In this document: piece by piece, positions 38,881-64,000 of the stretch
Numbering within the stretch: the first letter of the stretch is position 1
How the letters are laid out: each line of letters opens with the position of its first letter
Origin: Formosa algae
Lineage (GTDB): Bacteria > Bacteroidota > Bacteroidia > Flavobacteriales > Flavobacteriaceae
Direction: 5' to 3'
Length of the DNA stretch: 64,000 bases
Assembly: GCF_001439665.1 (NCBI RefSeq)
Contig: NZ_LMAK01000067.1
Location: 1 to 64,000, forward strand
Notes under the pieces: model-generated
Databases searched by the model: none
What the model saw: the letters and a program-made list of their open reading frames with translations, nothing else
Told to the model about the DNA's origin: nothing
Translations under genes and position numbers: made by a program

Positions 38881-38923
38881 ATGAACAAACAAACTAATTC
38901 AGATTTAATTTAATTAATATTGT

Positions 38924-41836: not shown

Positions 41837-41847
41837 AAAAAGAATTC

Positions 41848-43461: not shown

Positions 43462-43478
43462 TATAAAAGCATTATAAT

Positions 43479-44792: not shown

Positions 44793-44798
44793 CAAATA

Positions 44799-44840
44799 AA
44801 TAAGGGCTGTGACATTACTATCACAGCCCTTATTGTTTTT
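44799..44840 (+). terminator. Strong rho-independent terminator inside the plus arm
   Basis: A perfect 14-bp stem (44799-44812 with 44821-44834) with an 8-nt loop followed by a T run (GTTTTT). It lies between the SusE-like gene and the amylase gene that begins 13 bp later, so it should reduce or condition expression of the amylase relative to susCDE. Confidence 0.92.
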
Positions 44841-44852
44841 AAAGCATTCATT

Positions 44853-47864: not shown

Positions 47865-48875
47865 ATGAAACTTATTTTAAAAGACTACATTCTAGATTTA
47901 AAACATACGTTTACCATTTCTCGAGAATCTATAGATGTACAACCTAGTTTAATTGTGGTTTTAGAAGACGATGGCTTTCGCGGTCATGGTGAAGCCACCT
48001 CTAACCCATACTACAATATTACAGTGCCAATAATGATGGCCGAGCTCTCTAAAGTTAGAAGCATTATTGAAACGACTATAGATGAAACACCTGAAGTGTT
48101 TTATGCTAAAATGTATCCGCTTTTAAAACACAATATGTTTGCACTTTGCGCATTAGACCTTGCTTACAACGACTTATACGCTAGGAAACAACATAAAAAA
48201 CTGTATGAACTTTGGGGTTACGATATTTCTAACAATCCCTTAACCGATTACACTATAGGAATTGATACTGTTGAAAAAATGGTATCTAAAATGAAGGAGT
48301 TACCGTGGCCGATTTACAAAATTAAATTAGGCACTAATGAAGACATTAAAATTGTTACCGAATTACGAAAACACACAGATGCCGTATTTAGAATTGATGC
48401 GAATTGTGGTTGGACGGTCGATGAAACATTAAAAAATGCTATTGCTTTAAAAGCACTAGGCGTTGAATTTCTTGAACAACCTTTAAAAGCCGACAATTGG
48501 GACGGGCATAAAAAAGTATATCAAGACTCTGTTTTACCTGTAATTGCAGACGAAAGTTGCCAGGTCTCTGCAGATATTGCAAAATGCCACAACCATTTTC
48601 ATGGTGTAAATGTTAAACTTGTAAAATGTGGCGGCTTAACTCCTGCCCGAACTATGCTTACCGAAGCACGATCTTTAGGTATGAAAACCATGGTGGGTTG
48701 CATGACAGAATCTTCTGTAGGTATTTCAGCAATAGCCCATTTACTACCATTATTAGATTATGTAGATATGGATGGTGCTATATTATTGGCTAGAGATATT
48801 GCAACAGGTATTACTATAGATAATGGAGTAACACACTATAGCGACTTAAACGGGACTGGAGTCACTTTACTATAA
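47865..48875 (+). CDS. ycjG: L-Ala-D/L-Glu (dipeptide) epimerase, enolase superfamily
   Basis: 336 aa. Muconate-lactonizing-type enolase superfamily member: KxK catalytic Lys in YKIKLG (about 149-154), metal ligands in RIDANCGW (Asp about 175), EFLEQPL (Glu about 203) and IADESC (Asp about 228), and the opposite catalytic Lys in VKLVKCGG (about 252-259). This pattern is that of L-Ala-D/L-Glu epimerases, which convert the D-Glu of murein peptides into an L,L-dipeptide for hydrolysis. The next gene starts 6 bp later. Confidence 0.88.
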   Translation: MKLILKDYILDLKHTFTISRESIDVQPSLIVVLEDDGFRGHGEATSNPYYNITVPIMMAELSKVRSIIETTIDETPEVFYAKMYPLLKHNMFALCALDLAYNDLYARKQHKKLYELWGYDISNNPLTDYTIGIDTVEKMVSKMKELPWPIYKIKLGTNEDIKIVTELRKHTDAVFRIDANCGWTVDETLKNAIALKALGVEFLEQPLKADNWDGHKKVYQDSVLPVIADESCQVSADIAKCHNHFHGVNVKLVKCGGLTPARTMLTEARSLGMKTMVGCMTESSVGISAIAHLLPLLDYVDMDGAILLARDIATGITIDNGVTHYSDLNGTGVTLL

Positions 48876-48881
48876 CAATAT

Positions 48882-49901
48882 ATGGAAGTTAATAAAGCAC
48901 CCAACGATAAAATATCCTTAATGCATAAAAGTGTTTCCTATTTTGGAGGCACTTCTTATTTAGGGCTTGCTACACTTCCAGCATTTCAAGACCAAGTAAT
49001 TCAAGGTATTAAAAAATGGGGAACGGCTTACGGTAGTTCTAGGCATGCCAATGTAAAACTGAGTATATTTAAAGCAGCTGAGCACTTATTAGCTTCTCAA
49101 CTAAACACAGAAGCCTGTGTTACTGTCTCTTCCGGCATGTTAGCTGGCAAACTAATTTTAGATTATTTAGCACAATCGCATACACGTTTTTATCATTATC
49201 CAAATACACATCCGGCCATATTAGCACCCAACAGTTTACCTCTATATATTGAAAACGGATTACACCCCGCATTACTAACAGAAACTGTTGAAGATATTGT
49301 AATCTGTACAGATGCGATACCTACAGCTCATGTACAAAGTATTGACTTTCGTTTTATCAATAATATTCCGAAGCAAAAACACCTAACTTTAGTTGTAGAT
49401 GAATCGCATAGTATTGGCATTACTGGAGACTCTGGAATGGGAATTTTTAGTAAAATACCAACCACACATCTGTCTCAAAAAATTTTAGTGGGTTCTTTAG
49501 GAAAAGCTATGGGCTTACCTGGCGGAATTATTGCTGGAGATTCTAATACGATTGAAAACATAAAAAACACGGTTATGTTTTCCACGGCTTCAGGAATGAG
49601 TCCTGCGTATTTAGAAGCTTACCTTCAATCGGGAGCCATTTATAAGCAACAACAAGATAAACTTAAAGCTAATTTAGATTACTTTTTTGATGGACTACAA
49701 TTAGATGATGCTTTTGTGTACAACACAAATTATCCAAATATTTATAATTTCAACCGTGAGTTTTACGAAGCCTTATTGAATAAAAACATCGTTATCACTC
49801 ATTTTAATTATCCCACACCTCAAGATGTTTTAAGTCGGATTGTTCTATCTGCCAATCATACAAAAGCAGACATAGACTTCTTAAAGCGAGCCCTTAAATA
49901 A
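48882..49901 (+). CDS. PLP-dependent alpha-oxoamine synthase-like / class I-II aminotransferase
   Basis: 339 aa, shorter than the roughly 390-aa BioF/KBL proteins. PLP site is recognisable: VVDESHSIGITG (cofactor Asp and His-like SHS) and GSLGKAMGLPGGI with the PLP Lys. GSSRHANVKLSIFK matches the Gly-rich region of the family. It lacks part of the N-terminal arm. The tight pairing with dipeptide epimerase suggests action on amino acids freed from murein peptides, but its substrate cannot be read. 8-Amino-7-oxononanoate synthase is less likely given the context and size. Confidence 0.8.
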   Translation: MEVNKAPNDKISLMHKSVSYFGGTSYLGLATLPAFQDQVIQGIKKWGTAYGSSRHANVKLSIFKAAEHLLASQLNTEACVTVSSGMLAGKLILDYLAQSHTRFYHYPNTHPAILAPNSLPLYIENGLHPALLTETVEDIVICTDAIPTAHVQSIDFRFINNIPKQKHLTLVVDESHSIGITGDSGMGIFSKIPTTHLSQKILVGSLGKAMGLPGGIIAGDSNTIENIKNTVMFSTASGMSPAYLEAYLQSGAIYKQQQDKLKANLDYFFDGLQLDDAFVYNTNYPNIYNFNREFYEALLNKNIVITHFNYPTPQDVLSRIVLSANHTKADIDFLKRALK

Positions 49902-49908
49902 AGGCATA

Positions 49909-49944
49909 AAAAAAGCGTTTTCAACTTAATGAAAACGCTTTTTT
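49909..49944. terminator. Bidirectional terminator between the PLP enzyme and the second SusD gene
   Basis: A perfect stem (49909-49923 with 49930-49944, 6-nt loop) of A/T runs around GCG/CGC. It serves both the plus-strand epimerase-PLP pair and the convergent minus-strand SusCD pair, whose SusD gene ends at 49966. Confidence 0.88.
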
Positions 49945-49965
49945 ATTAACACACTTAAAAATTAA

Positions 49966-51453
49966 TTATTCATCCCACCACACTGGTGTTACTGGTGTCA
50001 CTTTATTCGCTGCGACAACATCTGGATTTGTAAATTCTTCGGTTGTTGGGTACGTTGCTCGTCTAAACCACTCGCCAGCATAATCACCATCAGAATCTTC
50101 TTCTTCTCTTATGGATAAGCCTTTAAATACATCATCTGAAAAATCGTAACGTCTAAAATCTACAAACGTTTCTGGGTTTAAGAAATTATGAATGTATTTC
50201 TCTTTCATGATGTGTTGTAACATTAATCCTGATTCGCCTACAGCAATTGCGCCGTCTGCTAAATAGTCGGTACCGTCTACATCATACTTAGAGAGACTTG
50301 CTTCTACTCCTGCTAAATACGCTTCGTAAGCCACTGCACTTGATCCAACACTTGTTGTAGATCCTCCATTTGCTAAAAATGCAGCTTCAGCTTTTATAAA
50401 CTGTGCCTCTGCATAACTTATAAGTAATAAAGGTGAATCTATACTCGTGTAATACCCATCTGCAGCAAAACCAGTATTACCTGAAGTACCGTCTGGCGCT
50501 AATCCGCCACCACCACTTACATAACCTTTCCACTCGTCTTCACCACCATTATCGCCAAATACGGGTAAACGTGGATCTATTGTTAACGCATCACTTTCGA
50601 AAGGAAAATAATCACCATTCATAGAACTCACTAACTGACTAGCCAAATCGTTATGATAATTCCCTGTACTTTTGGCTACAACTTCAATAGAATACCAAGG
50701 GTTTTGATCTTCATCATCGTAAAACATTTGAAAATCATCATCGTTAGACACGAATCCATTTTCTATAGTAGATAGAACTTCACTCGCAGAAACAGTTCCT
50801 TTTTGAACCAAATGCAGTTGATAACGTGCTTTTAAGGTATAAGCTGCTCTTAACCATTTATCTGTATCTCCTGCATAAATTAAATCATCTGTTCCTAAAT
50901 ACGTTCCAGAATCGTCTGTTTGTTGCAATTGTGCTATTGCCGTATCTAAAAGCGTAAAGATTTCAGTATAAATACTCTCTTGAGTATCGAAATCTGGAAA
51001 TAAATTATCTTGACCATTTGTGGCTTCTGTATACGGAATATTATTCCATGTATCTGTAGCAACTCCTAGATTAACAGCTGTTAAAATATCGGCTACAGCA
51101 CTATAATGAATTGCTCCTATTTCATCTGCCTTCTCTTTAATGGTTTCTACATTTGGTAGGGTGTATAAATACACGCTAGACCATAAACCAGAGGCTGTTG
51201 TTTCTCCTGAAGCTACACCGCCTTCTCCAACAAAATATTGTGTATAATTACCAAAAGATTGCTCGGCAGAATATTGTCCTGCTAAAGCTCTGTACATGAC
51301 AGGTGCCATTAGATCACTAACTCTTAGCTCTTCCTCTTCTGCGGTACCTGATGGTGTGTTCACATCAAAATAATTATCACTACAGGCAGAAAGTCCAACT
51401 AAAAGCAGTCCTAACATTCCTGTTTTTATTATAAACTTTTTCATCATTTTCAT
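49966..51453 (-). CDS. SusD-like_2 family outer-membrane lipoprotein
   Basis: 495 aa. Lipoprotein signal ending GLSAC (about residue 24; start may be the MKKF at 51444 instead). NYFDVNTPS at the mature N-terminus, FGNYTQYFVGEGG, TWNNIPYTEA and RQHL-type helices such as LKARYQLHL match the SusD-like_2 (PF12771 type) group rather than starch-binding SusD. A C-terminal GYAGEWFRR-like region closes it. It is the lid partner of the SusC encoded upstream and would bind a ligand that is not obviously a glycan; members are often tied to peptide or mixed nutrient uptake. Confidence 0.88.
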   Translation of the reverse strand: MKMMKKFIIKTGMLGLLLVGLSACSDNYFDVNTPSGTAEEEELRVSDLMAPVMYRALAGQYSAEQSFGNYTQYFVGEGGVASGETTASGLWSSVYLYTLPNVETIKEKADEIGAIHYSAVADILTAVNLGVATDTWNNIPYTEATNGQDNLFPDFDTQESIYTEIFTLLDTAIAQLQQTDDSGTYLGTDDLIYAGDTDKWLRAAYTLKARYQLHLVQKGTVSASEVLSTIENGFVSNDDDFQMFYDDEDQNPWYSIEVVAKSTGNYHNDLASQLVSSMNGDYFPFESDALTIDPRLPVFGDNGGEDEWKGYVSGGGGLAPDGTSGNTGFAADGYYTSIDSPLLLISYAEAQFIKAEAAFLANGGSTTSVGSSAVAYEAYLAGVEASLSKYDVDGTDYLADGAIAVGESGLMLQHIMKEKYIHNFLNPETFVDFRRYDFSDDVFKGLSIREEEDSDGDYAGEWFRRATYPTTEEFTNPDVVAANKVTPVTPVWWDE

Positions 51454-51456
51454 CTT

Positions 51457-54400
51457 TTAAAATCCTAAATTAATTCCCATTGAAAAACTCTCACTAAGCG
51501 GAGTCCCTAAACCTGTAAATCCATAGACATTACTTCCAGCACTGTACTGGTTACCTTCTGGATCGTAACTCTCGTAAGGCGTCCATAATAAGATGTTATG
51601 TGCACTTACTGAAAACCCGATACGTTCCATTTTTAATTTCTGTAATAAATCGCCTTTAACATTATAAGTTAAACCAATATTACGAAGCTTTACCCATGAG
51701 GCATCTTGAACTAATATCTCTGCTGCACGGTTATAGTTATTACTAGCTCTATAGTAATCTTGATCGATATAAGCCTCTGTTGTGTTGGTTACAAACCCTC
51801 CAGCGCCATCGTCCATAACTCCATCCATAACCATAGTTTGATCTCTGAATTCAGTTTCAACTAGAATACCATTTCTTAGACTGTTACGTCTACCTGCATC
51901 ATATAAATCTCCGCCTTCTTTCCATTCTACTAAGAAATTAAATCCGAAACCTTTATATGTAAAATTACTTCCTAAAGATGTCGTAAAGTCTGGGAATGCA
52001 TTCCCTACTTTTACACGTTCATCTAAATTAATTTCTGGAATTCCATCTTCGTTTATATACCGTTCTCCATCAACATAAGTCCATTTATAACCATACATAT
52101 CTCCCATTTTATCACCTTCACGAATTTCTGAAGTTACCCCTGCAAAACCTGAATCTGCAAATATTAACGACTCTATATCATCTGGTAAATCCAATACTTT
52201 TCCTTCGTTAGTAGACCAGTTAAACACCAGTTCCCATTTAAGATCCTTACTTCTAATGACGTCGTAGGCAATTAATAATTCGTGTCCGAAGGATTCAAAA
52301 TCTCCTGCATTTCTTACAATACCCGACAATCCTGTTGAATAAGCCGCATCAACTGTAAAAATTTGATCTTTAACACGTGTTTTGTAGTATGCATAATCTA
52401 AACGAATACGGTTTTTAAAAAAACGCAAGTCTACCCCAACCTCGTAAGATTGGTTACGTTCTGGAATCATATTTGTGTCACCTAAAAGTGTACTAGATCT
52501 GTATCCTCCAGCTCCTCCGAAAGGGAAATTCCCGTCAGACACAAAATAGTGCCCTACTTGTCCAAATAAAGGGCCTTTACCCACTTCTGCCCAAGATGCT
52601 CTTAATTTACCAAAACTAAACACGTCTGTATCTTTAACTATTAAATCGTGAATATCGTAAGCTAAACTTACAGAAGGATAAAAGAAAGATCTGTTTTCTT
52701 CTGGTAATGTAGATACCCAGTCGTTTCGACCAGTAAAAGTTAAGAATAATTTGTTTTTATAATCCATTTTTAACTCACCAAAAACACCTACGTTACGCAA
52801 TTGCGTGATTGTTTTTCCTGCAAACATATTAATAGTATTAGAAATGTCGTTAATTCCAGGCACATTAAGTGTTTCTCCACGCTGCCAAGTGTAATCTCTT
52901 TTTGTATCTGAAATTTGATTTCCTACGGTAAGTGTTGTTTTAAAATCGTCGCTCCACTCTTTTTCCATAGCGACTAAGAAATTAGATTCTAAACCTGTAA
53001 AATTAATATTCTGATTAACAATAAATCCACCAACTGCTGCTCCTGCATCTAAATCTGCAGCCACAAAACGGTTTCTTTGGTCTGAATAATTATCTACTTG
53101 TGCTGCATAGGTAACTGTCATCCAATCTAAAGGTGTCCAGCTAAATGTTGCATTTCCTACCCAACGATTCACATCGTCTAATAAAGGACTTGTTTCTAAT
53201 AAATATCTTGGATTATCGATAACTCCGAAAGAGTAATTACGTTGTGTACCATCTGCATTGATATAATCATTAATTGGGAATGTAGCAGAATAATAAGACA
53301 GTGAACTAAATACAGATTTATCTCCACCATTACCTCTGGCACCTCCAGCATTGGTATACGCAATAGAAGTATTCACATTAAAATTGTCTGTAACTTTATA
53401 CCCTCCTTTAAACCTAAAGGTTGTTTTATCGTAATATGTATTTGGTAACACACCTTCTTCACTATCGTTTCCGGCAGAGAAGAAATAATCTATTTTTTCT
53501 GTAGCACCACTAATACTAAAATTAAGCTGTGTATTAACTCCTGTTCTGAATAAATCGTACGGATCGTAAAATTTGTCGCCAGTTAAATCTACTACAGTAC
53601 CATCATCTAAAGTATAAAAATCGTCACTATATTTTGGCCCCCAAGAATAGAATGATGTTCCGCCTAATCTTGTAAATCCGCTATCTGTTTCTGGTGTATA
53701 CAAAGTTCTTGGAGCACCACTATAACCTTCTCTATATGTTTTTTGTAAATCTGGAGTTGTACGAATTTGTCTAAACGTAGTAGACGCGCTCATGTTTATT
53801 TTAGCTTTACCTAATTTTCCTCTTTTAGTCGTAATTACAATTGCACCATTTGCAGCTCTTACACCATACAAGGCTGTTGCCGCTGCTCCTTTTAATACGT
53901 TATAACTTTCTATATCCTCCGGGTTAATATCTGTAGCTCTGTTAGAGAATGAAAATTGCTCTGAACTACTTGGAGAGTTTGAACCTGTACTTGGTAGTAC
54001 ATCTCCAGAAAAGGTATCGTTGTTAAGCGCTAATCCATCTACAATAATTAGAGGTTGGTTATCTCTATCTGGGTTTACCGAAGTGACCCCACGAATTAAA
54101 ATGTCTACACCACCACCTGAAGATCCAGAGGTTTGGCTAATTTGTAATCCAGCCACACGTCCTTGCAACGCTGCTACAGCATTAGATTGTCCTGCTAAAT
54201 CTAAATCTGAGGTTTCAACCTTGGACACGGAATATCCGACTTCCCTTGCAGATTTCTCTATCCCGAAAGCGGTGACTAAAACTTCATTTAAGGCTTCACC
54301 TTCACTCATAACCATAGTTACATTTAAAGTTGCGCCTTCTACACTCATTTCGACTTTTTCATATCCTAAGAATGAAAAAATTAAAACATCCCCTGAATTA

Positions 54401-54594
54401 GCCTTGAGCGCATAATTTCCATCGAAATCTGTTGAGGTTCCAGAAGCCGTTCCTTTTAACAGAATGTTTACACCCGGTAAAGGCATACCATTATCATCTT
54501 TTACAGTTCCTTTTACGTCAATGTTCTGAGCAAATAGCATTGAAAACATAGAAGTAAAAAAGACAATAAAAGAAAGTACATGTGTTTTTCTCAT
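51457..54594 (-). CDS. Second SusC-family TonB-dependent outer-membrane transporter
   Basis: 1045 aa. Signal peptide (about 1-22, ending MLFAQ), carboxypeptidase-like domain (about 24-100), TonB-box-like segment EVLVTAFGIEKSAREVGY (about 104-121), plug (about 122-258) with QGRVAGLQIS, IRGVTSVNPDRDNQPLIIVDG and ATALYGVRAANGAIVITTKRGK, then a barrel ending GINLGF. The N-terminal TonB-box-like sequence with FGIEKSA is characteristic of SusC partners of SusD-like_2 proteins. The SusD gene follows after 3 bp. It is not preceded by a regulator in this window. Confidence 0.94.
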   Translation of the reverse strand: MRKTHVLSFIVFFTSMFSMLFAQNIDVKGTVKDDNGMPLPGVNILLKGTASGTSTDFDGNYALKANSGDVLIFSFLGYEKVEMSVEGATLNVTMVMSEGEALNEVLVTAFGIEKSAREVGYSVSKVETSDLDLAGQSNAVAALQGRVAGLQISQTSGSSGGGVDILIRGVTSVNPDRDNQPLIIVDGLALNNDTFSGDVLPSTGSNSPSSSEQFSFSNRATDINPEDIESYNVLKGAAATALYGVRAANGAIVITTKRGKLGKAKINMSASTTFRQIRTTPDLQKTYREGYSGAPRTLYTPETDSGFTRLGGTSFYSWGPKYSDDFYTLDDGTVVDLTGDKFYDPYDLFRTGVNTQLNFSISGATEKIDYFFSAGNDSEEGVLPNTYYDKTTFRFKGGYKVTDNFNVNTSIAYTNAGGARGNGGDKSVFSSLSYYSATFPINDYINADGTQRNYSFGVIDNPRYLLETSPLLDDVNRWVGNATFSWTPLDWMTVTYAAQVDNYSDQRNRFVAADLDAGAAVGGFIVNQNINFTGLESNFLVAMEKEWSDDFKTTLTVGNQISDTKRDYTWQRGETLNVPGINDISNTINMFAGKTITQLRNVGVFGELKMDYKNKLFLTFTGRNDWVSTLPEENRSFFYPSVSLAYDIHDLIVKDTDVFSFGKLRASWAEVGKGPLFGQVGHYFVSDGNFPFGGAGGYRSSTLLGDTNMIPERNQSYEVGVDLRFFKNRIRLDYAYYKTRVKDQIFTVDAAYSTGLSGIVRNAGDFESFGHELLIAYDVIRSKDLKWELVFNWSTNEGKVLDLPDDIESLIFADSGFAGVTSEIREGDKMGDMYGYKWTYVDGERYINEDGIPEINLDERVKVGNAFPDFTTSLGSNFTYKGFGFNFLVEWKEGGDLYDAGRRNSLRNGILVETEFRDQTMVMDGVMDDGAGGFVTNTTEAYIDQDYYRASNNYNRAAEILVQDASWVKLRNIGLTYNVKGDLLQKLKMERIGFSVSAHNILLWTPYESYDPEGNQYSAGSNVYGFTGLGTPLSESFSMGINLGF

Positions 54595-55051
54595 ATTTTA
54601 AGTTGGTTTTAATATTATGTTAATTTAACATAAAATATATAAACCTCACCCACAACAAGTACTGAATTCTAATTGAAAGCTTCATTTCTGAGCATTTATC
54701 AAAAAGCATTGAGTAAAAATAGCGATACATTAGACGGCTGACTTTTGAGAAGTAAATAATTGCTATTTTGACAAAAAGACAATCTAAAACACTGTTTTAC
54801 AACAGACAAAAAAACATTACCTTTTATAAAAAAAGCATCATTTACCATAAGAAGAGCAAGCTAAAACGTCAATTATTAAGAAACAACCGCAAAAAAACTG
54901 CAAAAAGCGTACTCCTATTTTTTAGACCGTTTAAGACCTATGAAAATTTAGTACATTTATAATTCTGAAGGAATTTATCAGAATTTTATTGTCCCTATTT
55001 TAAAACCTTAGTTATATGCATTGCATTTCTATTTTCAACTTAAAAACGGTT
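54595..55051. other. Divergent intergenic region between SusC and the PBP4-type gene
   Basis: 457 bp. It contains the 19-bp palindrome described separately and must hold the divergent promoters of the second susC and of the DD-carboxypeptidase gene. An open frame at 54768-54962 encodes a lysine-rich 64-residue product of low complexity and is probably not a gene. I see no other structure. Confidence 0.6.
54615..54633. promoter_or_regulatory. 19-bp palindrome upstream of the second susC
   Basis: TTATGTTAA and TTAACATAA form a perfect 9-bp inverted repeat with one central base, 21 bp before the susC start codon at 54594. It looks like a repressor operator or a promoter-proximal hairpin. Confidence 0.6.
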
Positions 55052-56314
55052 ATGTATAAAATCGTTAGCCTATTAATACTATCTACAATTGCTTTAAGTT
55101 GTAAATCTGCAAAAATATCTAAAACCATTACTAAAACAGTTTCTAGTAATTTTTACGACAATCAGTTTACAGGTATCATGATTATAGATCCGGAGACAGC
55201 AGATACTGTTTACCAGTACCAAGCAGAAAAGTATTTTATTCCGGCTAGCAACACCAAAATCGCGACTTTGTTTAGTGCATTAACATTATTAAAAGATAGT
55301 GTTCCTGCATTTTACTATCAGAAAAAAGCAGATACTTTAGTAATACAAGGCATAGGTAATCCAACATTTTTACATCCGTATTTTAAAGATAGTACAGCGT
55401 TAAGATGGGCTAAAAACTATAAGCATGTGAAAATTATAGAATCCTCATTTGCAGACGATAAATTTGGACCAGGCTGGGCTTGGGAAGATTACGACACTTA
55501 CTATAGTCCAGAACGTACCGCTTTTCCCATGTATGGAAATGTAGCGAGCATCTCTAACAGCAGTCAACTAGAAGTCAGCCCAAAATATTTTAAAGACAGC
55601 GTTTTTCAAAAAACAAAAAAAATAAGTAGAGCTTACAATACCAATATTTTTTATTACGATACAACCAAAACACGAGCAGTAGAAATTCCCATTGTGTTTG
55701 ATAGTCTAACCTCTCAAAACCTTTGGAAACATATACTTCCTGGAAAGATAAGTTTTTCTAAATCTAGATTTACAGAAGAACCTAATATAGCATACAGCAT
55801 ACCGTCTGATTCCTTATATAAACGTATGATGTACGAAAGCGATAATTTTCTTGCAGAACAAATGCTTATTATGGCGTCTAGTAACATTACAGATACTTTA
55901 AACACTGCCTTAGTTAGGAATTATATGCTAGATAATTATTTAACTGATTTAAAACAAAAACCACGCTGGGTAGATGGGTCCGGATTGAGCAGATATAATT
56001 TATTTTCGCCATTATCTTTTGTGCAAATACTATCAAAATTATATGCTACAATTCCGCGTGAACGCTTGTTAAACTTCTTTCCCGTAGGCGGAGGATCTGG
56101 TACATTAAAAAGTTGGTACGGCGGAAATCCAGAACCTTATATTTATGCTAAATCTGGAACCGTAGGAAACAATTATTGTTTAAGCGGATTTTTGTTAACT
56201 AAATCTGGAAAAATACTAATTTTTAGTTTTATGAATAACCATTATAAAACACCTACAGCAGAGAATAAAACACGAATGCAACAGATTTTTGAATATGTAA
56301 GAGACACCTATTAA
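55052..56314 (+). CDS. dacB: PBP4-type D-alanyl-D-alanine carboxypeptidase/endopeptidase, lipoprotein
   Basis: 420 aa from ATG at 55052 (MYKIVSLLILSTIALSC); the frame is open from 55016, but this start gives a clean lipoprotein signal with Cys17. Class C penicillin-binding motifs: FIPASNTKIATL (SxxK, Ser/Lys), VDGSGLSRYN (SxN-like) and YAKSGTVGNN (KSGT). It cuts D-Ala-D-Ala peptides or cross-links in murein. It is convergent with, and overlaps by 4 bp, the M14 peptidase gene. Confidence 0.88.
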   Translation: MYKIVSLLILSTIALSCKSAKISKTITKTVSSNFYDNQFTGIMIIDPETADTVYQYQAEKYFIPASNTKIATLFSALTLLKDSVPAFYYQKKADTLVIQGIGNPTFLHPYFKDSTALRWAKNYKHVKIIESSFADDKFGPGWAWEDYDTYYSPERTAFPMYGNVASISNSSQLEVSPKYFKDSVFQKTKKISRAYNTNIFYYDTTKTRAVEIPIVFDSLTSQNLWKHILPGKISFSKSRFTEEPNIAYSIPSDSLYKRMMYESDNFLAEQMLIMASSNITDTLNTALVRNYMLDNYLTDLKQKPRWVDGSGLSRYNLFSPLSFVQILSKLYATIPRERLLNFFPVGGGSGTLKSWYGGNPEPYIYAKSGTVGNNYCLSGFLLTKSGKILIFSFMNNHYKTPTAENKTRMQQIFEYVRDTY

Positions 56315-57786
56315 TCTTTAAAAATTAAGGCATTTTTAAAAACCCTATTCTCTTCATTTAAATTAATTAGAAACCCGTTTACAACAGCATAGTGTACTAC
56401 ATTATCCTTTTGTAATAAAAAAGAAGGATTAACACCAACACCTAAGTTAAACTCCGGTAGCTTATAATTTTCATTAACAATATTAATTGGCAATGCAGTA
56501 AATTTCTCTAAATCTTCTAAGTCTAAAACACGCACATACGTATACCCCTGTTGTAACAATTTGGTAATGGTTTTAGATTTTAAATCGGCTACTGTTTTAA
56601 AGACTTTGGTATATATTTTTCCAGGTATAAGCGTGTATCCTTTTGCATTAAAAGTATCGAACCCATAATAAGTGCTTAAATCGCCCTGATCTATAATTCG
56701 TCCAACATTGTAATAGTCTGCATGTTCCTTAATATCGGTTTCTGTATAATTAATACCTAAGTCTAAAACATATGGTGTTCCATGTAAATTATAGGTCAAT
56801 TCGGTTAATTTTAAGTCGAATAACTTTCTATCATTCTTAGGGATTTTTTCATAATCTGCTATATCTATTTGTTTATACTCTCTATTGGCAATAACATATA
56901 TTGCAGAAAGAATAGACACGTAATTCAGTTTTCTAATTTCTTGTTTCTCTTGGTCGTTTTTATAACCTCCAGATTCAATTAAAATGGCACTTGTTCCCCA
57001 TTTCTGAATATTATCACCAAAAGCTCGTGGCTCAAAATCGTCATTATATCTACCCACTTGTCCAGGCGCATATTGCTGAATTATAGTATTCATATATACA
57101 ATCACTTTCATTGCATTGCCTCTCACGTCATTAACCTCCTTTTCATAATTGTAAGCTGGTGCTAAATAAGATATTGTTGCGGGTTTACTTGTGCGTTCTG
57201 CATTGTAATACCGACTCTGATCGTGTAAATTAAACCCGAAGTCGGCATTTAAACTATCGCGTACACGTTTTAAAATTTGTCCTTCTGGAGATTGCAATCT
57301 CAAAGCATCGCGATTAATATCGATACCCAAAGCATTTCGTCTTTGAAACACCTCTGCCCCATCTGGGTTTAACATGGGTAAAAAATGTAAGGTCAATGCG
57401 CTTAATATAGCCTCTTTTTCGTCTTTAAAGTGATTTCCGTTTAAAAAATTGAAAATGTCAAATATCGCTTGTGTCGCTGTCGTTTCATCGCCATGCATTT
57501 GCGACCACAAAAACACATTTACAGGACCGCTACCAACACTTATTAAATTTATATCTCGACCTTCTATAGATGTACCGACTCTTTTAACGGTATATACATC
57601 ATCAGATTTTAGGGTTTCAATAAACGGTTGAATATCGCTATGTTTTAACCGACGTGTAGTAAACTCTTGAACTTTATAATCATCGTAACCCTTATAAAGT
57701 TGAGATGTAAACGTTACGTTTTGTGCACAAACAGACAAGCTTAAAAGTAAAATAATGCTGTGTAAAATATATTTCATATGATTCAT
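56311..57786 (-). CDS. M14 family zinc carboxypeptidase, secreted
   Basis: 491 aa. Signal peptide (MNHMKYILHSIILLLSLSVCAQ; the start may be the second Met at 57777). Zinc site: HGDE (about 93-96, HxxE) and His in NLHDQSRYY (about 182-190); catalytic Glu in ILIESGGYK (about 269-277). After the peptidase domain there is a C-terminal extension of about 200 residues rich in beta character that I do not recognise. M14 members near murein enzymes often act as gamma-D-Glu-mDAP (MpaA-like) peptidases, a fit with the neighbourhood. Confidence 0.88.
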   Translation of the reverse strand: MNHMKYILHSIILLLSLSVCAQNVTFTSQLYKGYDDYKVQEFTTRRLKHSDIQPFIETLKSDDVYTVKRVGTSIEGRDINLISVGSGPVNVFLWSQMHGDETTATQAIFDIFNFLNGNHFKDEKEAILSALTLHFLPMLNPDGAEVFQRRNALGIDINRDALRLQSPEGQILKRVRDSLNADFGFNLHDQSRYYNAERTSKPATISYLAPAYNYEKEVNDVRGNAMKVIVYMNTIIQQYAPGQVGRYNDDFEPRAFGDNIQKWGTSAILIESGGYKNDQEKQEIRKLNYVSILSAIYVIANREYKQIDIADYEKIPKNDRKLFDLKLTELTYNLHGTPYVLDLGINYTETDIKEHADYYNVGRIIDQGDLSTYYGFDTFNAKGYTLIPGKIYTKVFKTVADLKSKTITKLLQQGYTYVRVLDLEDLEKFTALPINIVNENYKLPEFNLGVGVNPSFLLQKDNVVHYAVVNGFLINLNEENRVFKNALIFKD

Positions 57787-57787
57787 T

Positions 57788-58465
57788 TTATGGTGTTGGA
57801 GTGTCTTTAAATCCGCATTTCAAAGTCCCTAATTGAACAGCCTCTACAAACGATTGTCCTGGATCTGTTTTTTCGGTTCTATAGCCTTGATCTTTTTCTA
57901 ACCAAAGCGGATGATTTTCAAAATTGGTATATTCATAATGACCAATAAGATAATCGATAGGATATTTTTTACTCAAATACTTCACCAATTTAATATTTGC
58001 TTTCACCTGAAGCTCTGTTAAAGGCAAATCTGCAGTTCCTCCTACATTTTCAATCCCAATTGCACAGTGATTTAAACCAATAACATGGCGAGCCATTGTG
58101 GTTTCTGGCATTAATCTATATATCGTACCATCTTGATCTACCAAAAATTGAGAAGACACATTTAAAGGACTAGCTCCTGTAATCTCTTTTCTATAATTTG
58201 GTAATATTGGGTCTTTAAACACCTGATAGGTTTTTTCTAAAGTCGGCACAACGGTCCAGTGTAACACTATCATTTTTGGGACTATTTCAGGTGTGGTTTG
58301 TTCCAATCCGTAATGTCTTTTGAGGTAATCAATGGTTAATACTTTGCGTTCCTCATTAAAAACAATCGGCTTATCTATTATTTGCTTTTCCACACCACAA
58401 GAGACTAAAAAAAGCGATAAAACAGCAATTTTAAGTCCATTTATTGAAGATATACTCATAAACAT
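57788..58465 (-). CDS. N-acetylmuramoyl-L-alanine amidase (Amidase_2/AmiD type), lipoprotein
   Basis: 225 aa. Lipoprotein signal ending LFLVSC (the second Met at 58459 may be the start). Zinc ligands: His in IVLHWT (about 68-73), His in GLNHCAIGIE (about 129-138), and an acidic/Asp in KTDPG. The QFLVDQDGTIYRL strand is the AmiD signature. It removes the peptide from muramic acid and releases stem peptides. Start of the minus-strand pair with the M14 peptidase, one base apart from it. Confidence 0.9.
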   Translation of the reverse strand: MFMSISSINGLKIAVLSLFLVSCGVEKQIIDKPIVFNEERKVLTIDYLKRHYGLEQTTPEIVPKMIVLHWTVVPTLEKTYQVFKDPILPNYRKEITGASPLNVSSQFLVDQDGTIYRLMPETTMARHVIGLNHCAIGIENVGGTADLPLTELQVKANIKLVKYLSKKYPIDYLIGHYEYTNFENHPLWLEKDQGYRTEKTDPGQSFVEAVQLGTLKCGFKDTPTP

Positions 58466-58604
58466 GAAGGTTTTACACTAAAAAAAATGTTATAAAATAT
58501 TATAAGGCAAATAGCTTAAACTAAAAATACAACTTATAAAGAGACCACAACCTAGACATAAGTCTTTTTTTAAGTTGATAACGGATTAAGAAAATAAAAT
58601 TCTA

Positions 58605-58612
58605 TAGTTTTG
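58605..58612 (+). promoter_or_regulatory. Putative -7 promoter element (TAnnTTTG) of the DUF2914 gene
   Basis: TAGTTTTG about 92 bp before the start codon; a TTG at 58575 lies a little far for the -33. Candidate promoter. Confidence 0.35.
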
Positions 58613-58667
58613 AACAAAGAAAATCTAGACGTATTTTTAATAGATAATAATCATTTCCAATAGGCTT

Positions 58668-58679
58668 ATAAGCGCTTAT
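58668..58679. repeat. 12-bp perfect palindrome before the DUF2914 gene
   Basis: ATAAGCGCTTAT followed by a T run (TTTTTTG), 25 bp before the start. Could be an operator or short attenuator-like hairpin. Confidence 0.4.
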
Positions 58680-58703
58680 TTTTTGCTTTATTTAATACTT
58701 AAT

Positions 58704-59819
58704 ATGAAACAGAAATTAATTAATTTTAAGCAAAGTGGCTTACATAGGTTTATACTTAAACATCAAAAATATGCACCAATATTATTTTTTATTGGTGGTT
58801 TTATTTTCGACACTCTCACACTTGGTAGAATAGATAGATTGTATGACTTGGTTGTATTATGCTTACATATGACGTCCTTAAGCATAACCTTGTTTTTATA
58901 TAATTTATCTGATGATGGCGCTTGGAAAAACACCTTTTTAGATCGCTTTAAAGACTATTTCCCTCTAGCTATACAGTTTTTCTTTGGTGGTCTTTCTAGT
59001 GCTTATGTTATCTATTTTTCTAGAAGTGTGTCTTTATCTAAAACAGCTAGTTTTTTCGTGATTTTGGTGGCTCTGTTTTTAGCAAATGAATTCTTAAAAA
59101 AACGAATTTCGAACAAATATCTTCAGTTTAGTATTTACTTTTTTATAAGTTTTACGTTTTTCACCTTTATGATTCCGGTATTTGTTAAAGCAATGAACCC
59201 TACTATTTTCCTAATATCTGGCGCCATAAGCTTAACATGCACCTTGCTTTTAATTACTTTTATTTATGCCAAGAGTCCAAGTACACGCGAAGAAATTAAA
59301 CTAGGTAAATTATTGTCCATAATACTAGCTATTTACGTCACTATAAATGGGTTTTATTATTTCAAACTAATTCCTCCTGTGCCATTAGCTTTACAAGTTG
59401 GTATTGTTGCACACGATGTTACAACTACAAAAGATGCCTATTTGGTTACCTACGAACGACAAGAAGATCTTATTTTTTGGAGAGATTATAATTCTAAATT
59501 TATACATCAACCCAACGAGCCAGTGTATGTGTTTTCTTCTGTTTTTGCACCAACAGCATTACAAAAATCTATTATTCACCGGTGGAAGTGGTATAATGAA
59601 TCTATAAACGAATGGGTAACGGTAGACAATATTAGCTACAATATTACAGGCGGAAGAAACAATGGTTATCGTGGTTACACCTATAAAAACAATATTAAAC
59701 CGGGGTTGTGGAGCGTAGAAGTTTTAACCGAAGAAGAATTACTTTTAGGCGTAATTGATTTTGAAATCATTACAGACAGTAATCTTACTCCCCAAAGGTT
59801 AACACAACATAAGTTTTAG
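58704..59819 (+). CDS. Membrane protein with C-terminal DUF2914 domain
   Basis: 371 aa from ATG at 58704 (MKQKLINFKQSGLHRF); the frame is open from 58683. The N-terminal two thirds carry about six to seven hydrophobic helices. The C-terminal domain (about 230-371) has the DUF2914 pattern: VYVFSSVFAP, IIHRWKWYN, GYRGYTYKNNIKPGLWSVEVLTEEELLLGVIDFE. DUF2914 is extracellular and of unknown function; some members relate to envelope stress. It stands alone between the amidase and the amidoligase cluster. Confidence 0.8.
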   Translation: MKQKLINFKQSGLHRFILKHQKYAPILFFIGGFIFDTLTLGRIDRLYDLVVLCLHMTSLSITLFLYNLSDDGAWKNTFLDRFKDYFPLAIQFFFGGLSSAYVIYFSRSVSLSKTASFFVILVALFLANEFLKKRISNKYLQFSIYFFISFTFFTFMIPVFVKAMNPTIFLISGAISLTCTLLLITFIYAKSPSTREEIKLGKLLSIILAIYVTINGFYYFKLIPPVPLALQVGIVAHDVTTTKDAYLVTYERQEDLIFWRDYNSKFIHQPNEPVYVFSSVFAPTALQKSIIHRWKWYNESINEWVTVDNISYNITGGRNNGYRGYTYKNNIKPGLWSVEVLTEEELLLGVIDFEIITDSNLTPQRLTQHKF

Positions 59820-60253
59820 AATTATTAATTCGCTTTAAAGACACAACACACAAATATTTGTAAATTAGATAATTAACACTTGTAAACATTCAGATTTGTA
59901 AGTTTGGTTTGTAAGTTGTTATTTTATTTCAGGTGAAAACAGCATCAAAAAAACGTCGTTTAAATCAGGGGTTAATCTCACAGCTTAGCATGGTTGTTCT
60001 GTTTTCATACTAGAATCAGACATACAGAATAATAGACTTAAAAATCTTATATTTTTAACACGATTTACAACATTAATTAAATTTAAAACAGCCTCTAAAT
60101 AATATTTTATAAAAAACATGTCTAAAAATTACAAATACGTCATTTAACCATAATAATTTATAGACAATATATAATCTTTTATTTTTTTTTATCACTTCTA
60201 TAAGGATTCGCATAAAAATCACTTAAATTGTAATGTCTTTAACTGAATTATTT
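59820..60253. other. Long non-coding region before the transglutaminase-DUF2126 gene
   Basis: 434 bp with no plausible gene. It contains a candidate promoter (59899-59906), TTTGTAAGTT repeated in tandem (59895-59904 and 59908-59917), and a 9-bp inverted repeat TGAAAACAG/CTGTTTTCA (59934-59942 with 59999-60007, 56-nt loop). Either the gene has a leader of about 330 nt or a small RNA is made here. Confidence 0.5.
59899..59906 (+). promoter_or_regulatory. Putative promoter with -7 TAAGTTTG and upstream TTG
   Basis: TAAGTTTG matches TAnnTTTG, and TTG at 59880-59882 lies 16 bp upstream, close to the usual spacing. This is the best promoter match in the window. Confidence 0.45.
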
Positions 60254-63200
60254 ATGGCATTAAAAATAGTAATATCACACAAAACAAAATACAAATACGA
60301 TAGATTAGTATCGTTATCACCTCATATATTTAGGCTTCGTCCTGCTCCGCATAGCAGAACTCCAATTGAAGCTTATTCAATTAAAATAGAACCAGAGGAA
60401 CAATTTTTCAATTGGCAACAAGACCCTTTTGGTAATTACATGGCTCGACTAATTTTTCCTGAAAAAACAAAAGAGTTATCTATTGAAGTTGAAATTATTG
60501 CGGATTTAAAAACCATTAATCCATTCGATTTCTTTGTTGAAGAAAGTGCTGAAGAATATCCGTTTACGTATAATGAAACGATAAAAAAAGAGCTTCAGCC
60601 CTATTTAGAAATCACAGAACGCGGAAAGCTTCTAGAAGATTTCTTAAAGACTATAGATACTACACCAAGAAAAACCATTTATTTTCTAATAGATATCAAT
60701 CAGAAAATTTATGAGTATTTAAAATATAACATCCGTATGGATCCGGGTGTACAATCTTGCGAAGAAACCCTTGATCACAGAACAGGATCTTGTCGTGATT
60801 ACGCATGGCTATTTGTACAAACTTTACGTCATTTAGGTTTTGGTGCTCGTTTTGTTTCTGGGTATTTAGTCCAATTAAAATCTGACGAAAAATCTTTAGA
60901 CGGTCCTTCTGGTCCTGAAGAAGATTTTACAGACTTACATGCTTGGGCAGAGGTTTATCTTCCTGGTGCTGGTTGGATTGGTTTCGACGCGACTTCTGGA
61001 TTATTGGCTGGAGAAGGCCATATTCCATTAGCTTGTACGCCATCTTTTGAGAGTGCAGCTCCAGTCTCGGGAATGTCTGATGTTTGTGAGACAGAATTCT
61101 TTTTTGAAAATTCTGTAAAGCGTATTTTCGAATCACCTCGTGTAACGAAACCCTACACGGAGGAACAATGGAAAGCCATTTACAAACTTGGATTTAAGGT
61201 TGAAAAAGAACTTGAAAAAGGCGATGTAAGATTAACAATGGGAGGCGAACCCACTTTTGTATCTATAGACGATATGGAGTCTGAAGAGTGGAACACTGCT
61301 GCCGATGGTCCACACAAACGTGAACTTGCAAAAAATTTAGCTGCTAAAATATACGACGAATACGATAACGGAAGTGTACTACATCAAGCGCAAGGAAAAT
61401 GGTATCCTGGCGAACCTTTACCTCGTTGGCAAATTGAAATTTGCTGGAGAAAAGATGGTAAAAAAATATGGCAGAATAAAAATTTATTAGCCCTGTTTGC
61501 AAATAATACGGTGTTGCCAGAAGATGCGGATAAGCTGTTTTTAGAGACACTAACCAAATATCTAGACATTACTGCCAAACACATTATCCCAACTTACGAA
61601 GATGCGTTTTACTTTATTTGGGAAGAAGGTAAATTACCAATAGATATAGACCCTACTAAAGACGATAGTGCCTTATTAGTTAAAGACAAATTAAAACAAA
61701 TATTAAACGACGGAAAATCTAAACCTGTAGGTTATGTTTTACCGCTTAACAATACATCAGATCAATGGTACACTAACAGTTGGCAGTTTAGACGTAACCA
61801 CCTGTTTCTAATTCCAGGAAATTCACCAATCGGATTACGATTACCTTTAGATTCTTTAATTAGAAAACCTGACACGGGAGAATTCCCAACCTATCAGCCA
61901 GATAATTTTTCAACTAAGAAAAAATTACCGAGCTATAAAAACAAAGTGTTAAGACGCATTAGAAAAGTATATGCGGAAGGTTTAACTCCAGACGAATCTA
62001 ATTATTTTATAAGAACAGCCATTTGTGCCGAAGTCAGAGACGATAAATTACACTTATTTTTACCGCCATTAGATTCTGCCGAAATCTTTTTAGATCTTAT
62101 TTCTTCTATAGAATCTACAGCAAGAGAATTACAAATTCCTGTGGTATTAGAAGGTTATGATCCGCCTAAAGATAACAGATTAGAATCGCTTAAAATTACT
62201 CCAGACCCTGGTGTAATCGAAGTCAATGTTCAGCCTGCTAAAAACTGGGAGGAACTTACACATAACACGCTAACATTATACCGCCTTGCAAAAGAATCGC
62301 GTTTAGGTACAGAAAAATTCATGTTAGATGGTAAACACACTGGAACAGGTGGTGGAAACCATGTCACTTTAGGAGGTGTGTCTCCTGCAGATAGCCCATT
62401 ATTACGTAAACCTAGTTTATTACGAAGTTTACTTACATTTTGGCAACATCACCCAGGATTGTCATACTTATTCTCCGGAGCTTTTATTGGAGCAACCAGT
62501 CAAGCGCCTCGTATAGACGAAGCGAGAATGGAAAATTTATACGAATTAGAAATCGCATTTAGTCAGATTCCTAAAGATGGCGAAGTGCCGTTTTGGTTAA
62601 CAGACCGATTATTCCGTCATTTATTAACCGATTTAACAGGAAATACACACCGTGCAGAATTCTGCATTGATAAATTATATTCTCCAGATTCATCTTCTGG
62701 TCGATTAGGAATTTTAGAGCTACGTGCTTTTGATATGCCACCTCATCCTCAAATGAGTTTAATGCAAAACTTGTTGGTAAGAACATTAGTAGCTTGGTTC
62801 TGGAAAAAACCTTACGAACACAATTTAGTACGTTGGGGCACAGAATTACATGATAAGTTTTTAACAGAACACTATGTAAGAGAAGACATTAAAGATATAG
62901 TAGACCAACTAAATAAAGCTGGATATAAATTTCAAGAAGATTGGTTTAATCCGTTTTTCGAATTTAGATTTCCGCTTCACGGCATGGTAGAAATTAATAA
63001 TATTAATTTAGAATTACGTGCTGCTATAGAGCCTTGGAACGTTTTAGGAGAAGAAATGACCGGCGGTGGAACTGCTAGATACGTAGATTCTTCTGTAGAA
63101 CGTGTACAAGTTAAACTTTCTCATTTCACAGAAGAGAGATTTGTATTAACTTGCAACGGTGTTAAAGTAAATTTAAACAACACCGGTGTTAAAGGAGAAT

Positions 63201-63586
63201 ATGTTGCTAGTATTAGATACAAAGCTTGGAATCCACATTCCTCCTTACACCCAACAATAGATGTAGATACCCCTTTGGTTTTTGATATTATTGACACTTG
63301 GAACAAACGTTCTATTGGAGGTTGCACCTATTTTGTTGCACATCCAGGCGGACGATCTTATGAAACTTACCCTATTAATAGCTATGAAGCAGAATCTAGA
63401 CGAATTAATCGTTTCTGGGACCAAGGCCATACACAAGGTGAAATTTTTGAGGTCGAAAAAATTGAACAAGACGATAATAATGCAAGTAGAAATGTTGAAA
63501 CACATGAAGGCTCTAGAAAGTTTAAATACCTAGAACAACCTATTAATTTCGAATTTCCTTATACCTTAGATTTAAGAAAAAAATAG
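60254..63586 (+). CDS. Transglutaminase-DUF2126 fusion protein of the amidoligase-type cluster
   Basis: 1110 aa from ATG at 60254 (MALKIVISHKTKYKYDR), the typical opening of the family; the frame is open from 60233. Residues 1-290: N-terminal region plus transglutaminase-like core with the Cys in GSCRDYAWL (about 180-188) and His/Asp in DLHAWAEVYLPG (about 224-235). Residues about 325-1110: DUF2126, with LTMGGEPTFVSIDD, YAEGLTPDES, TGGGNHVTLGGVSPADSP and FIGATSQAPRIDEARM. DUF2126 is predicted to be a glutamine-synthetase-like amidoligase. Its partners usually include a circularly permuted ATP-grasp protein, which follows here after 7 bp. Confidence 0.9.
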   Translation: MALKIVISHKTKYKYDRLVSLSPHIFRLRPAPHSRTPIEAYSIKIEPEEQFFNWQQDPFGNYMARLIFPEKTKELSIEVEIIADLKTINPFDFFVEESAEEYPFTYNETIKKELQPYLEITERGKLLEDFLKTIDTTPRKTIYFLIDINQKIYEYLKYNIRMDPGVQSCEETLDHRTGSCRDYAWLFVQTLRHLGFGARFVSGYLVQLKSDEKSLDGPSGPEEDFTDLHAWAEVYLPGAGWIGFDATSGLLAGEGHIPLACTPSFESAAPVSGMSDVCETEFFFENSVKRIFESPRVTKPYTEEQWKAIYKLGFKVEKELEKGDVRLTMGGEPTFVSIDDMESEEWNTAADGPHKRELAKNLAAKIYDEYDNGSVLHQAQGKWYPGEPLPRWQIEICWRKDGKKIWQNKNLLALFANNTVLPEDADKLFLETLTKYLDITAKHIIPTYEDAFYFIWEEGKLPIDIDPTKDDSALLVKDKLKQILNDGKSKPVGYVLPLNNTSDQWYTNSWQFRRNHLFLIPGNSPIGLRLPLDSLIRKPDTGEFPTYQPDNFSTKKKLPSYKNKVLRRIRKVYAEGLTPDESNYFIRTAICAEVRDDKLHLFLPPLDSAEIFLDLISSIESTARELQIPVVLEGYDPPKDNRLESLKITPDPGVIEVNVQPAKNWEELTHNTLTLYRLAKESRLGTEKFMLDGKHTGTGGGNHVTLGGVSPADSPLLRKPSLLRSLLTFWQHHPGLSYLFSGAFIGATSQAPRIDEARMENLYELEIAFSQIPKDGEVPFWLTDRLFRHLLTDLTGNTHRAEFCIDKLYSPDSSSGRLGILELRAFDMPPHPQMSLMQNLLVRTLVAWFWKKPYEHNLVRWGTELHDKFLTEHYVREDIKDIVDQLNKAGYKFQEDWFNPFFEFRFPLHGMVEINNINLELRAAIEPWNVLGEEMTGGGTARYVDSSVERVQVKLSHFTEERFVLTCNGVKVNLNNTGVKGEYVASIRYKAWNPHSSLHPTIDVDTPLVFDIIDTWNKRSIGGCTYFVAHPGGRSYETYPINSYEAESRRINRFWDQGHTQGEIFEVEKIEQDDNNASRNVETHEGSRKFKYLEQPINFEFPYTLDLRKK

Positions 63587-63593
63587 ACGATTA

Positions 63594-64000
63594 ATGCCGA
63601 TTGACAAGAATATCCTTTTTGAAAATTATTTTTCAGACTTTAAGAATTACGACGAAGTTCTTAAATCCAATATGTCTGTAAATCCAAATTGGGAAAAATT
63701 ATTAAATAATCTTACCCAAATGGGTAATGAAACCATGATCTCGAAACAAAACGAGATGGATTGGTTAATGGACGAGAACGGTGTAACCTATAATGTTTAC
63801 AATGACCCTAAAGGGATGCACCGTTCTTGGCAACTAAATATTGTGCCGTTTCTTATTCACGAAAAAGAATGGGAAACTATAGATAGAGGCATGCAACAAC
63901 GTTCGGAATTATTGAACCTAACGTTAAAAGACATATATGGTAAGCGAGAGCTTATAAAAAACGGAATTATCCCGTTAGAAGTTATTTATGCGCATCGTGG
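63594..64000 (+). CDS. Circularly permuted type 2 ATP-grasp protein, N-terminal part
   Basis: Read by hand from ATG at 63594; open to the window edge (about 135 residues). Sequence includes GVTYNVYNDPKGMHRSW and QQRSELLNLTLKDIYGKREL, typical of the N-terminus of COG2308-type circularly permuted ATP-grasp ligases. The ATP-binding core lies outside the window. Its start is 7 bp after the stop of the DUF2126 fusion gene, so both belong to one operon; related clusters also carry an alpha-E domain protein and sometimes a second transglutaminase. Confidence 0.9.
   Translation, partial: MPIDKNILFENYFSDFKNYDEVLKSNMSVNPNWEKLLNNLTQMGNETMISKQNEMDWLMDENGVTYNVYNDPKGMHRSWQLNIVPFLIHEKEWETIDRGMQQRSELLNLTLKDIYGKRELIKNGIIPLEVIYAHR

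Follow-up and report, generated by a model that had tools for sequence, protein, structure and literature searches.

Our analysis of a 64,000-base window of Formosa algae DNA (the whole stretch from base 1 to 64000 of contig C67, 234,971 bases, NZ_LMAK01000067.1, in a 4.29-Mb draft genome with 99.73% completeness) focused on a gene cluster at its right-hand end, which encodes a transglutaminase (TG)-like domain fused to DUF2126 (protein A), a circularly permuted (CP) ATP-grasp-like protein fused to alpha-E (protein B), and a further TG, termed TG(C). Across 62 fused and 57 stand-alone CP ATP-grasp proteins, alpha-E fusion coincides with loss of the ATP-grasp signature residues. With roughly even odds, protein B is a pseudo-ligase that lost the residues for handling ATP a single time, before it spread across many bacterial phyla, and has since been kept as the noncatalytic half of a heteromeric amide-ligating machine, the live half being a stand-alone ATP-grasp/alpha-E pair. 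The three genes would make up one operon-like unit, belonging to a module for amide/peptide ligation that is widespread, and to this explanation as a whole we assign a probability of about 0.55.

Loss of ATP-grasp signature residues in protein B

Protein B (853 aa, + strand) starts at 63594, runs through the window edge at 64000, and ends at C67:66155 on the extended contig (L006 7594-10155). Its residues 85-461 matched the Pfam profile CP_ATPgrasp_2 (PF14403) above the gathering score, with 489 bits over 374/374 profile positions, and residues 510-837 matched Alpha-E (PF04168) with 182.7 bits. An earlier reading of the window's sequence (hereafter, the original prediction) had placed alpha-E to the right of the window; it does lie there, but as a domain of the ATP-grasp protein rather than in a gene of its own. 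Where the intact type carries E-D-N, D-D-K, and G-G-Y-G, protein B has N-D-R, E-N-S, and N-R-E-S. The original prediction had treated the conserved ATP-grasp residues in the remainder of this gene as decisive for its case, and these residues are lost, including the Glu and Asn that we take to be metal ligands, the DDK motif, and the Gly loop. The roles of DDK and the Gly loop are presumed from their position and from general knowledge of ATP-grasp enzymes, and residue roles beyond those in the trypanothione synthetase model described below are likewise our assumption. Without these presumed catalytic residues, protein B is a poor candidate for the peptide ligase, and we infer from its sequence that it is catalytically inactive.

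The comparison was based on an alignment of 52 fused (B-type) and 46 stand-alone ATP-grasps, those of F. algae included, in which type was assigned by best score (smallest margin, 86 bits) and from whose residue counts a cut 159-aa B-type protein of L032 was excluded by a length limit of 400; in the structure alignments, some redundant or motif-less rows were dropped (65 rows in A2; L100 left out of A3). The stand-alone type (46 proteins) exhibited 108 columns with conservation of at least 95%, many of which persist in the fused type. Positions P86, R104, D114, P178, G180, R188, G237, E245, D294, G305, N322, and G325 were kept in 52/52 fused proteins, and R443 was kept in 51/52. Lost from the fused type were E172 (1/52), N174, D330, D331, and K332 (0/52 each), the Gly loop (G385 2/52, Y387 0/52, G388 2/52), D441 (0/52), and the NSSQ stretch (N473 1/52, S474 2/52, S475 0/52, Q476 1/52). 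The residues E172, N174, D331, and K332 were all present in 46/46 stand-alone proteins, versus none of the four in 51/52 fused proteins and only the Glu in the other (L059). In a second set, comprising 11 stand-alone and 10 fused proteins from 11 Pseudomonadota-sample genomes without DUF2126, all 20 signature positions were kept by 11/11 stand-alone proteins, and N174, D331, or K332 was kept by 0/10 fused proteins, one of which (L174) retained the Glu. In both sets together, 57/57 stand-alone proteins kept all four residues; among the fused proteins, 60/62 kept none and 2/62 kept Glu only. Alpha-E was found in protein B and in 51/51 other fused proteins versus 0/45 other stand-alone proteins, and in 10/10 versus 0/11 in the second set. 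In a tree built by a quick method, one branch with 100% SH-aLRT support split the fused from the stand-alone proteins.

The fused type also displayed conserved columns of its own, namely, W33 and E329 (each 51/52 versus 0/46 stand-alone proteins), W358 (51/52 versus 0/46), G360 (51/52 versus 2/46), and G181 (52/52 in the fused type). Since some of the substituted positions are themselves conserved (G181, E329, W358), protein B appears to be maintained rather than decaying, which suggests that it is under selection for something. At the ER motifs of alpha-E, protein B has G526-R527 and E690-Q691; in 51 fused rows, the first motif showed E in 40 and R in 51, and the second showed E in 49 and R in 38. 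A model of the alpha-E domain of a relative from Algibacter lectus (L027) was almost entirely helical (pLDDT 92.2), and its comparison with PDB structures gave no significant match (best E 0.12). In the fused protein of Vreelandella olivaria (L067 13416-15824), the CP_ATPgrasp_2 match ends at profile position 271/374, and the Gly-loop end of the ATP-grasp is, as judged by this match, missing or unrecognizable. The only solved sequence relative that we found, 3n6x, titled "putative glutathionylspermidine synthase", is of the stand-alone type (E 1.5e-151 for the stand-alone ATP-grasp and 3.1e-81 for protein B) and keeps EDN, DDK, and GGYG in its alignment, whereas protein B has none of the three.

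A stand-alone CP ATP-grasp (488 aa) with intact signature residues is encoded on contig C2 of the same genome (L009), in line with genes for an alpha-E protein (314 aa) and a TG (282 aa); two more TG genes, each single, are found on C11 and near C67:132 kb. The TG of the C2 locus (L009 9165-10013, - strand) carries Ser in place of the catalytic Cys and Tyr in place of His; the 20 other TG genes in that alignment keep the triad, and 11/20 of them have a stand-alone ATP-grasp no more than about 3 kb away. In the F. algae genome, therefore, a live-looking ATP-grasp sits with a dead-looking TG, and a dead-looking ATP-grasp sits with a live-looking TG.

Protein A and the order of the three genes

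The gene order A-B-TG(C) runs entirely on the + strand. The TG-DUF2126 fusion and the CP ATP-grasp gene 7 bp downstream (gap 63587-63593), both named in the original prediction, were borne out by the open reading frames (ORFs) and Pfam. Extension of the contig to the right, which that prediction had proposed, revealed the rest of protein B and, 2 bp past its stop, the second TG that had been expected downstream, TG(C) (295 aa; C67:66158-67045, outside the window), in which the triad is intact. The next gene encodes a DUF58 protein on the opposite strand.

Protein A (60254..63586, +, 1110 aa) comprises Bact_transglu_N (residues 7-82; 60272..60499; Pfam, 91.6 bits), Transglut_core (residues 147-246; 60692..60991; 66.2 bits), and DUF2126 (PF09899), a putative GS-like amidoligase (residues 276-1108; 61079..63577; 1264 bits over 826/826 positions), all on the + strand. 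An in-frame ATG is also present at 60233, and the start at 60254 was preferred because the first start codon of the 1110-aa frames of L026 and L027 aligns with it; the invariant Met of a 12-row alignment was not counted toward this choice, as the row starts were hand-chosen. The closest named relatives of protein A are from the Flavobacteriaceae Lacinutrix (81%) and Algibacter lectus (79%).

For comparison, a set of 81 loci was compiled from the F. algae locus and the best 80 of at least 591 confirmed stretches, which were retrieved with patterns from the TG domain and DUF2126. The residues Cys180 (60791-60793), His229 (60938-60940), and Asp245 (60986-60988), which we take from the TG superfamily to be the catalytic three, were kept in 81/81 proteins A, albeit with this His contained in one of the search patterns, and were also invariant in 12/12 proteins found through DUF2126 alone. 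The triad was complete in 56/56 separate TG genes of the same loci. The TG-DUF2126 order was fused in all 81 loci, which were found with patterns from both domains, and 11 other Bacteroidota full-length matches obtained with PF09899 alone lie in frames of 1110-1220 aa. The fused order had been regarded as special to this copy, but it is the rule.

Modeled alone with AlphaFold2, DUF2126 reached a pLDDT of 77.2 and a pTM of 0.79. In a Foldseek search with this model, 48 of the 50 best matches were GS-superfamily ligases (E 0.017-0.47; TM-scores of 0.31 or less), the top one being gamma-glutamylmethylamide synthetase. The GS-like nature that had been predicted for DUF2126 is thus weakly but consistently supported by the model: the matches agree with one another, while each of them is weak.

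Distribution of the fused and stand-alone proteins

According to the record titles, the best 80 loci belonged to Bacteroidota, Pseudomonadota, Campylobacterota, Nitrospirota, Desulfobacterota, Verrucomicrobiota, Planctomycetota, and Poribacteria. A B-type protein was encoded in 53 of the 81 loci, a stand-alone ATP-grasp in 45, and both in 30. A TG gene followed protein B in 49/53 loci, and in the other 4 the sequence ends within about 300 bases past B. A metagenome-assembled genome (MAG) titled Helicobacter pylori PMSS1 (L034) carries the cluster at 63% identity to protein A; this title is probably wrong.

Among sampled genomes, DUF2126 was detected in 12/296 Bacteroidota and in 84/299 from the phylum of a Pseudomonas (G350), taken as Pseudomonadota. 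The genome co-occurrence counts distinguish fused from stand-alone proteins by open-frame length alone. The fused type was present in 9/296 Bacteroidota genomes, all 9 within the 12 with DUF2126 (Fisher P 5e-15, kinship uncorrected), and each of these 12 has a stand-alone-length ATP-grasp. In a set of 91 DUF2126 genomes (80 plus 11 of the 12 Bacteroidota ones; the same species may recur), 68 carried both types and 4 were ambiguous, of which G364, G365, and G366 have cut or partial genes and G324 was later read as carrying both, raising the count to 69. Two long frames that had been considered intact fusions were rejected as such: the 983-aa frame of G324 ends after the ATP-grasp and is a stand-alone protein with a long open upstream frame, and the 830-aa frame of G659 ends 13 residues after the start of KDTW, lacks alpha-E, and is also stand-alone. 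In Pseudomonadota, a strong PF14403 match was obtained in 84/84 DUF2126 genomes versus 72/215 others. Among the matches listed, 89 Pseudomonadota genomes had two or more PF14403 matches, 79 with and 10 without DUF2126; some of these 89 may hold two stand-alone copies or pieces, and 5 genomes with weak matches only were left out. Genomes with the fused protein in these samples almost always carry the stand-alone one as well and mostly, but not strictly, DUF2126.

Proposed function of the module

In the scheme that we narrowly favor, the ligases would be the stand-alone ATP-grasp and DUF2126, the TGs would act as amidases or transamidases, and protein B would be a noncatalytic partner. The stand-alone ATP-grasp of the C2 locus, with its own alpha-E and TG, would be the catalytic one, activating a carboxylate with ATP and joining it to an amine. 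This role is suggested by its intact signature and by the phosphate release from ATP reported for the ATP-grasp encoded in the Anbu operon of Yersinia bercovieri (PMC6376114). Protein A would contribute a second, GS-like ATP-dependent ligase (DUF2126) along with a papain-like TG with a full triad, and it may make, open, or transfer isopeptide-type bonds, by analogy with bifunctional glutathionylspermidine synthetase/amidase (Gss). Protein B would be a noncatalytic ATP-grasp/alpha-E chain that assists TG(C), protein A, and the live pair in a structural or regulatory capacity or by holding substrate, as gene order and co-occurrence suggest.

In Gss-type enzymes, an ATP-grasp ligase is joined to a papain-like amidase. 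Escherichia coli Gss and trypanothione synthetase, ATP-grasp ligases with the motif E-x-N-x4-S, provide a model for how a ligase and a cysteine amidase may work together. This spacing is common to the stand-alone ATP-grasps, E. coli Gss (E330-Y-N332-x4-S337), and trypanothione synthetase (E344, N346, S351), whereas protein B lacks the motif. In a simulated model of trypanothione synthetase, Asp330, Glu344, and Asn346 hold two Mg, Lys513 and Lys548 contact the ATP phosphates, and Ser351 contacts the substrate (PMC3581523).

The setting is likely to be nitrogen supply; for the product, our guess is an amide rich in amines or amino acids that serves to store or assimilate nitrogen. Papers on Yersinia, Pseudomonas putida, Burkholderia cenocepacia, and marine metagenomes led us to propose an amide-ligation module that is probably linked to nitrogen supply. 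In P. putida, levels of PP_2685 (Anbu) and PP_2688 (ATP-grasp) on nitrate exceeded those on ammonium approximately 22- and 16-fold, respectively (log2 4.44 and 3.99; PMC8050072). B. cenocepacia H111 possesses an NtrC-dependent four-gene cluster, I35_5080-83, that resembles the module in encoding DUF404/407, DUF403, a TG, and a "large protein containing transglutaminase-like domain", with values from -6.0 to -9.4 in the ntrC mutant table (PMC5491218). This large protein is probably a TG-DUF2126 protein. In marine metagenomes, DUF403, DUF404, DUF407, and Bact_transglu_N were associated with urea-metabolism domains (PMC3597751).

This class of system has been predicted before: a peptide-ligation operon of ATP-grasp, alpha-E, TG, and the proteasome relative Anbu was reportedly proposed by Iyer et al. 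in 2009, and DUF2126 is said to have been part of that proposal. The module type given in the original prediction is right, as the families are the same as in predicted ligation operons (CP ATP-grasp, alpha-E, and TG-like), and the C2 locus has three of the four Anbu-operon genes in line. In contrast to that operon, no Anbu was found here, and the window copy adds DUF2126 and a fused ATP-grasp/alpha-E protein without the presumed catalytic residues. Overall, the observation in the original prediction was partly confirmed and its interpretation partly supported. A literature search from which subscription papers were mostly missing returned no description of an inactive ATP-grasp branch, no mention of DUF2126, and no product of the module.

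Counterevidence and alternative explanations

Several observations weigh against the proposed scheme. None of the Foldseek matches of DUF2126 reached an E of 0.001 or less, and profile comparison failed to match the stand-alone family to E. coli Gss, which leaves a short motif as the basis of the residue mapping to Gss. The tree gave warnings of long branches (L089, L083, L100, L096, and L049, all fused) and uneven letter make-up. Of the 91 DUF2126 genomes, 16 have the stand-alone type only, 2 the fused type only, and 1 neither, the last three being MAGs by title. Moreover, 10 Pseudomonadota-sample genomes, all with both ATP-grasp types, encode the fused protein without DUF2126, and protein B therefore does not strictly need protein A; a strict rule to that effect, which holds in Bacteroidota (9/9) but fails in these 10 genomes, was dropped. 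Distance correlations across 30 loci, uncorrected for the species tree, were 0.65 for DUF2126 and B, 0.66 for DUF2126 and the stand-alone ATP-grasp, 0.74 for DUF2126 and TG(C), 0.73 for B and TG(C), 0.71 for TG(C) and the stand-alone ATP-grasp, and 0.45 for B and the stand-alone ATP-grasp. These values single out no tie between A and B, and the last, the lowest of the six, does not favor direct pairing. The nitrogen evidence comes from other bacteria, in which the fused protein is not named; the passages on I35_5080-83 name no fused ATP-grasp/alpha-E protein, and the NtrC regulation that they describe is that of Burkholderia (PMC5491218). Finally, the fused type partially retains K379 (42/52), D159 (44/52), S179 (42/52), D173 (49/52), and G386 (17/52), which leaves room for nucleotide binding by protein B.

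The retained K379 and D159, together with the conserved W33, E329, W358, and G360, also fit a possible, though rather unlikely, alternative in which protein B is an active enzyme with changed chemistry, its pocket having been rebuilt (W33, G181, E329, W358, G360) for another ligand or for hydrolysis. Dop, a hydrolase on a ligase fold, is an example of such a change. Nucleotide chemistry is, however, hard to square with the alignment gap at Gly-loop position G385 in 6/52 fused proteins and with the V. olivaria match that stops at 271/374, and the B type also diverges faster, with a mean distance of 0.62 (whole length, alpha-E included) versus 0.44 for the stand-alone ATP-grasp. The simpler reading of the original prediction, in which the ATP-grasp encoded 7 bp after protein A is itself the peptide ligase acting with DUF2126, can draw on the full-length Pfam match and on the fact that A and B share a strand and lie no more than 300 bp apart in 44/53 loci. 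We consider it very improbable in view of the residues lost across the fused group (E, N, DDK, most of the Gly loop, and the NSSQ stretch) and the intact stand-alone relative in the same genome.

Protein tagging and degradation around Anbu, as published for the four-gene Anbu operon (PMC6376114, PMC5666114), appears improbable here. Anbu-like ORFs do occur near the cluster in 10/81 loci (12 ORFs; L038, L042, L044, L047, L055, L058, L072, L073, L075, and L104). Nevertheless, an Anbu query verified against PDB Anbu chains (L038 18471-19223; best E 1.4e-65) matched nothing up to an E of 1 in the F. algae genome, where the original prediction had listed Anbu as a remaining partner, nor in 2/4 other DUF2126 genomes searched with this one protein; in two control genomes, the same query gave E 2.8e-168 (its own source) and 1.7e-146. 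The profile PF00227 was likewise not found in the F. algae genome, although this absence alone says nothing about Anbu because Pfam at E 0.001 misses the verified L038 Anbu. In published work on the Anbu operon, Anbu was not seen to bind its operon mates specifically (PMC6376114). Modification of a gene-encoded precursor, similar to a ribosomally synthesized and post-translationally modified peptide (RiPP), is suggested by a unit that combines two folds of the ligase type with domains resembling cysteine proteases, but we likewise give it very little weight: the gaps between A, B, and TG(C) of only 7 and 2 bp leave no room, the upstream gap shares no small ORF with five relatives, and the ORFs of at least 90 aa in the 81 loci included no recurrent short partner. 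Candidate precursor peptides near the operon were accordingly rejected, nothing having been found at 18 aa or more in the upstream gap or at 90 aa or more elsewhere in the loci.

If protein B is indeed a noncatalytic partner, assaying the ATP-grasp beside DUF2126 for a product could, in such loci, end up testing a protein that is probably unable to use ATP. Which protein to assay and which to treat as a partner is indicated by the rule that alpha-E-fused proteins are emptied and stand-alone proteins intact, and the live enzyme must be sought genome-wide, beyond the cluster.

Upstream region and neighboring genes

The 434-nt gap upstream of protein A (59820..60253, +) had been described as a long structured leader, which was not borne out: its fold gave z = -1.18, with 13/100 shuffles folding as well, and Rfam yielded no match at the gathering threshold over 55000-64000. 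Compared with the upstream 433 nt of five relatives, the gap displayed local similarity near shuffle level, with 2/5 relatives exceeding the best of 100 single-base shuffles (L027, 25 versus 21; L028, 21 versus 20), and none of its small ORFs (18 aa or more) matched any in the gaps of these relatives. A riboswitch or structured RNA was rejected on the basis of the shuffle-level fold, the lack of an Rfam match, and the scarce conservation. The gap contains 7 promoter-like sites versus 4.5 expected. NCBIfam searches with 8 proteins and PADLOC searches with 5 proteins returned no match, and a defense system was rejected on the PADLOC result. To the left of the cluster, at 47865-58465, Pfam identified an MR_MLE (enolase-superfamily) protein, an aminotransferase-type pyridoxal phosphate enzyme, a SusD-like/TonB-receptor pair, an S13 D-Ala-D-Ala carboxypeptidase, an M14 peptidase, and an amidase_2 protein, genes that look like a set for muropeptide uptake and recycling. 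Farther left, at 28459-47711, lies a starch/maltose utilization locus with GH31, GH13 cyclomaltodextrinase-like, GH65, and LacI-type proteins by Pfam and with beta-PGM-like, MFS, and SusC/SusD-like proteins and a second amylase by eye.

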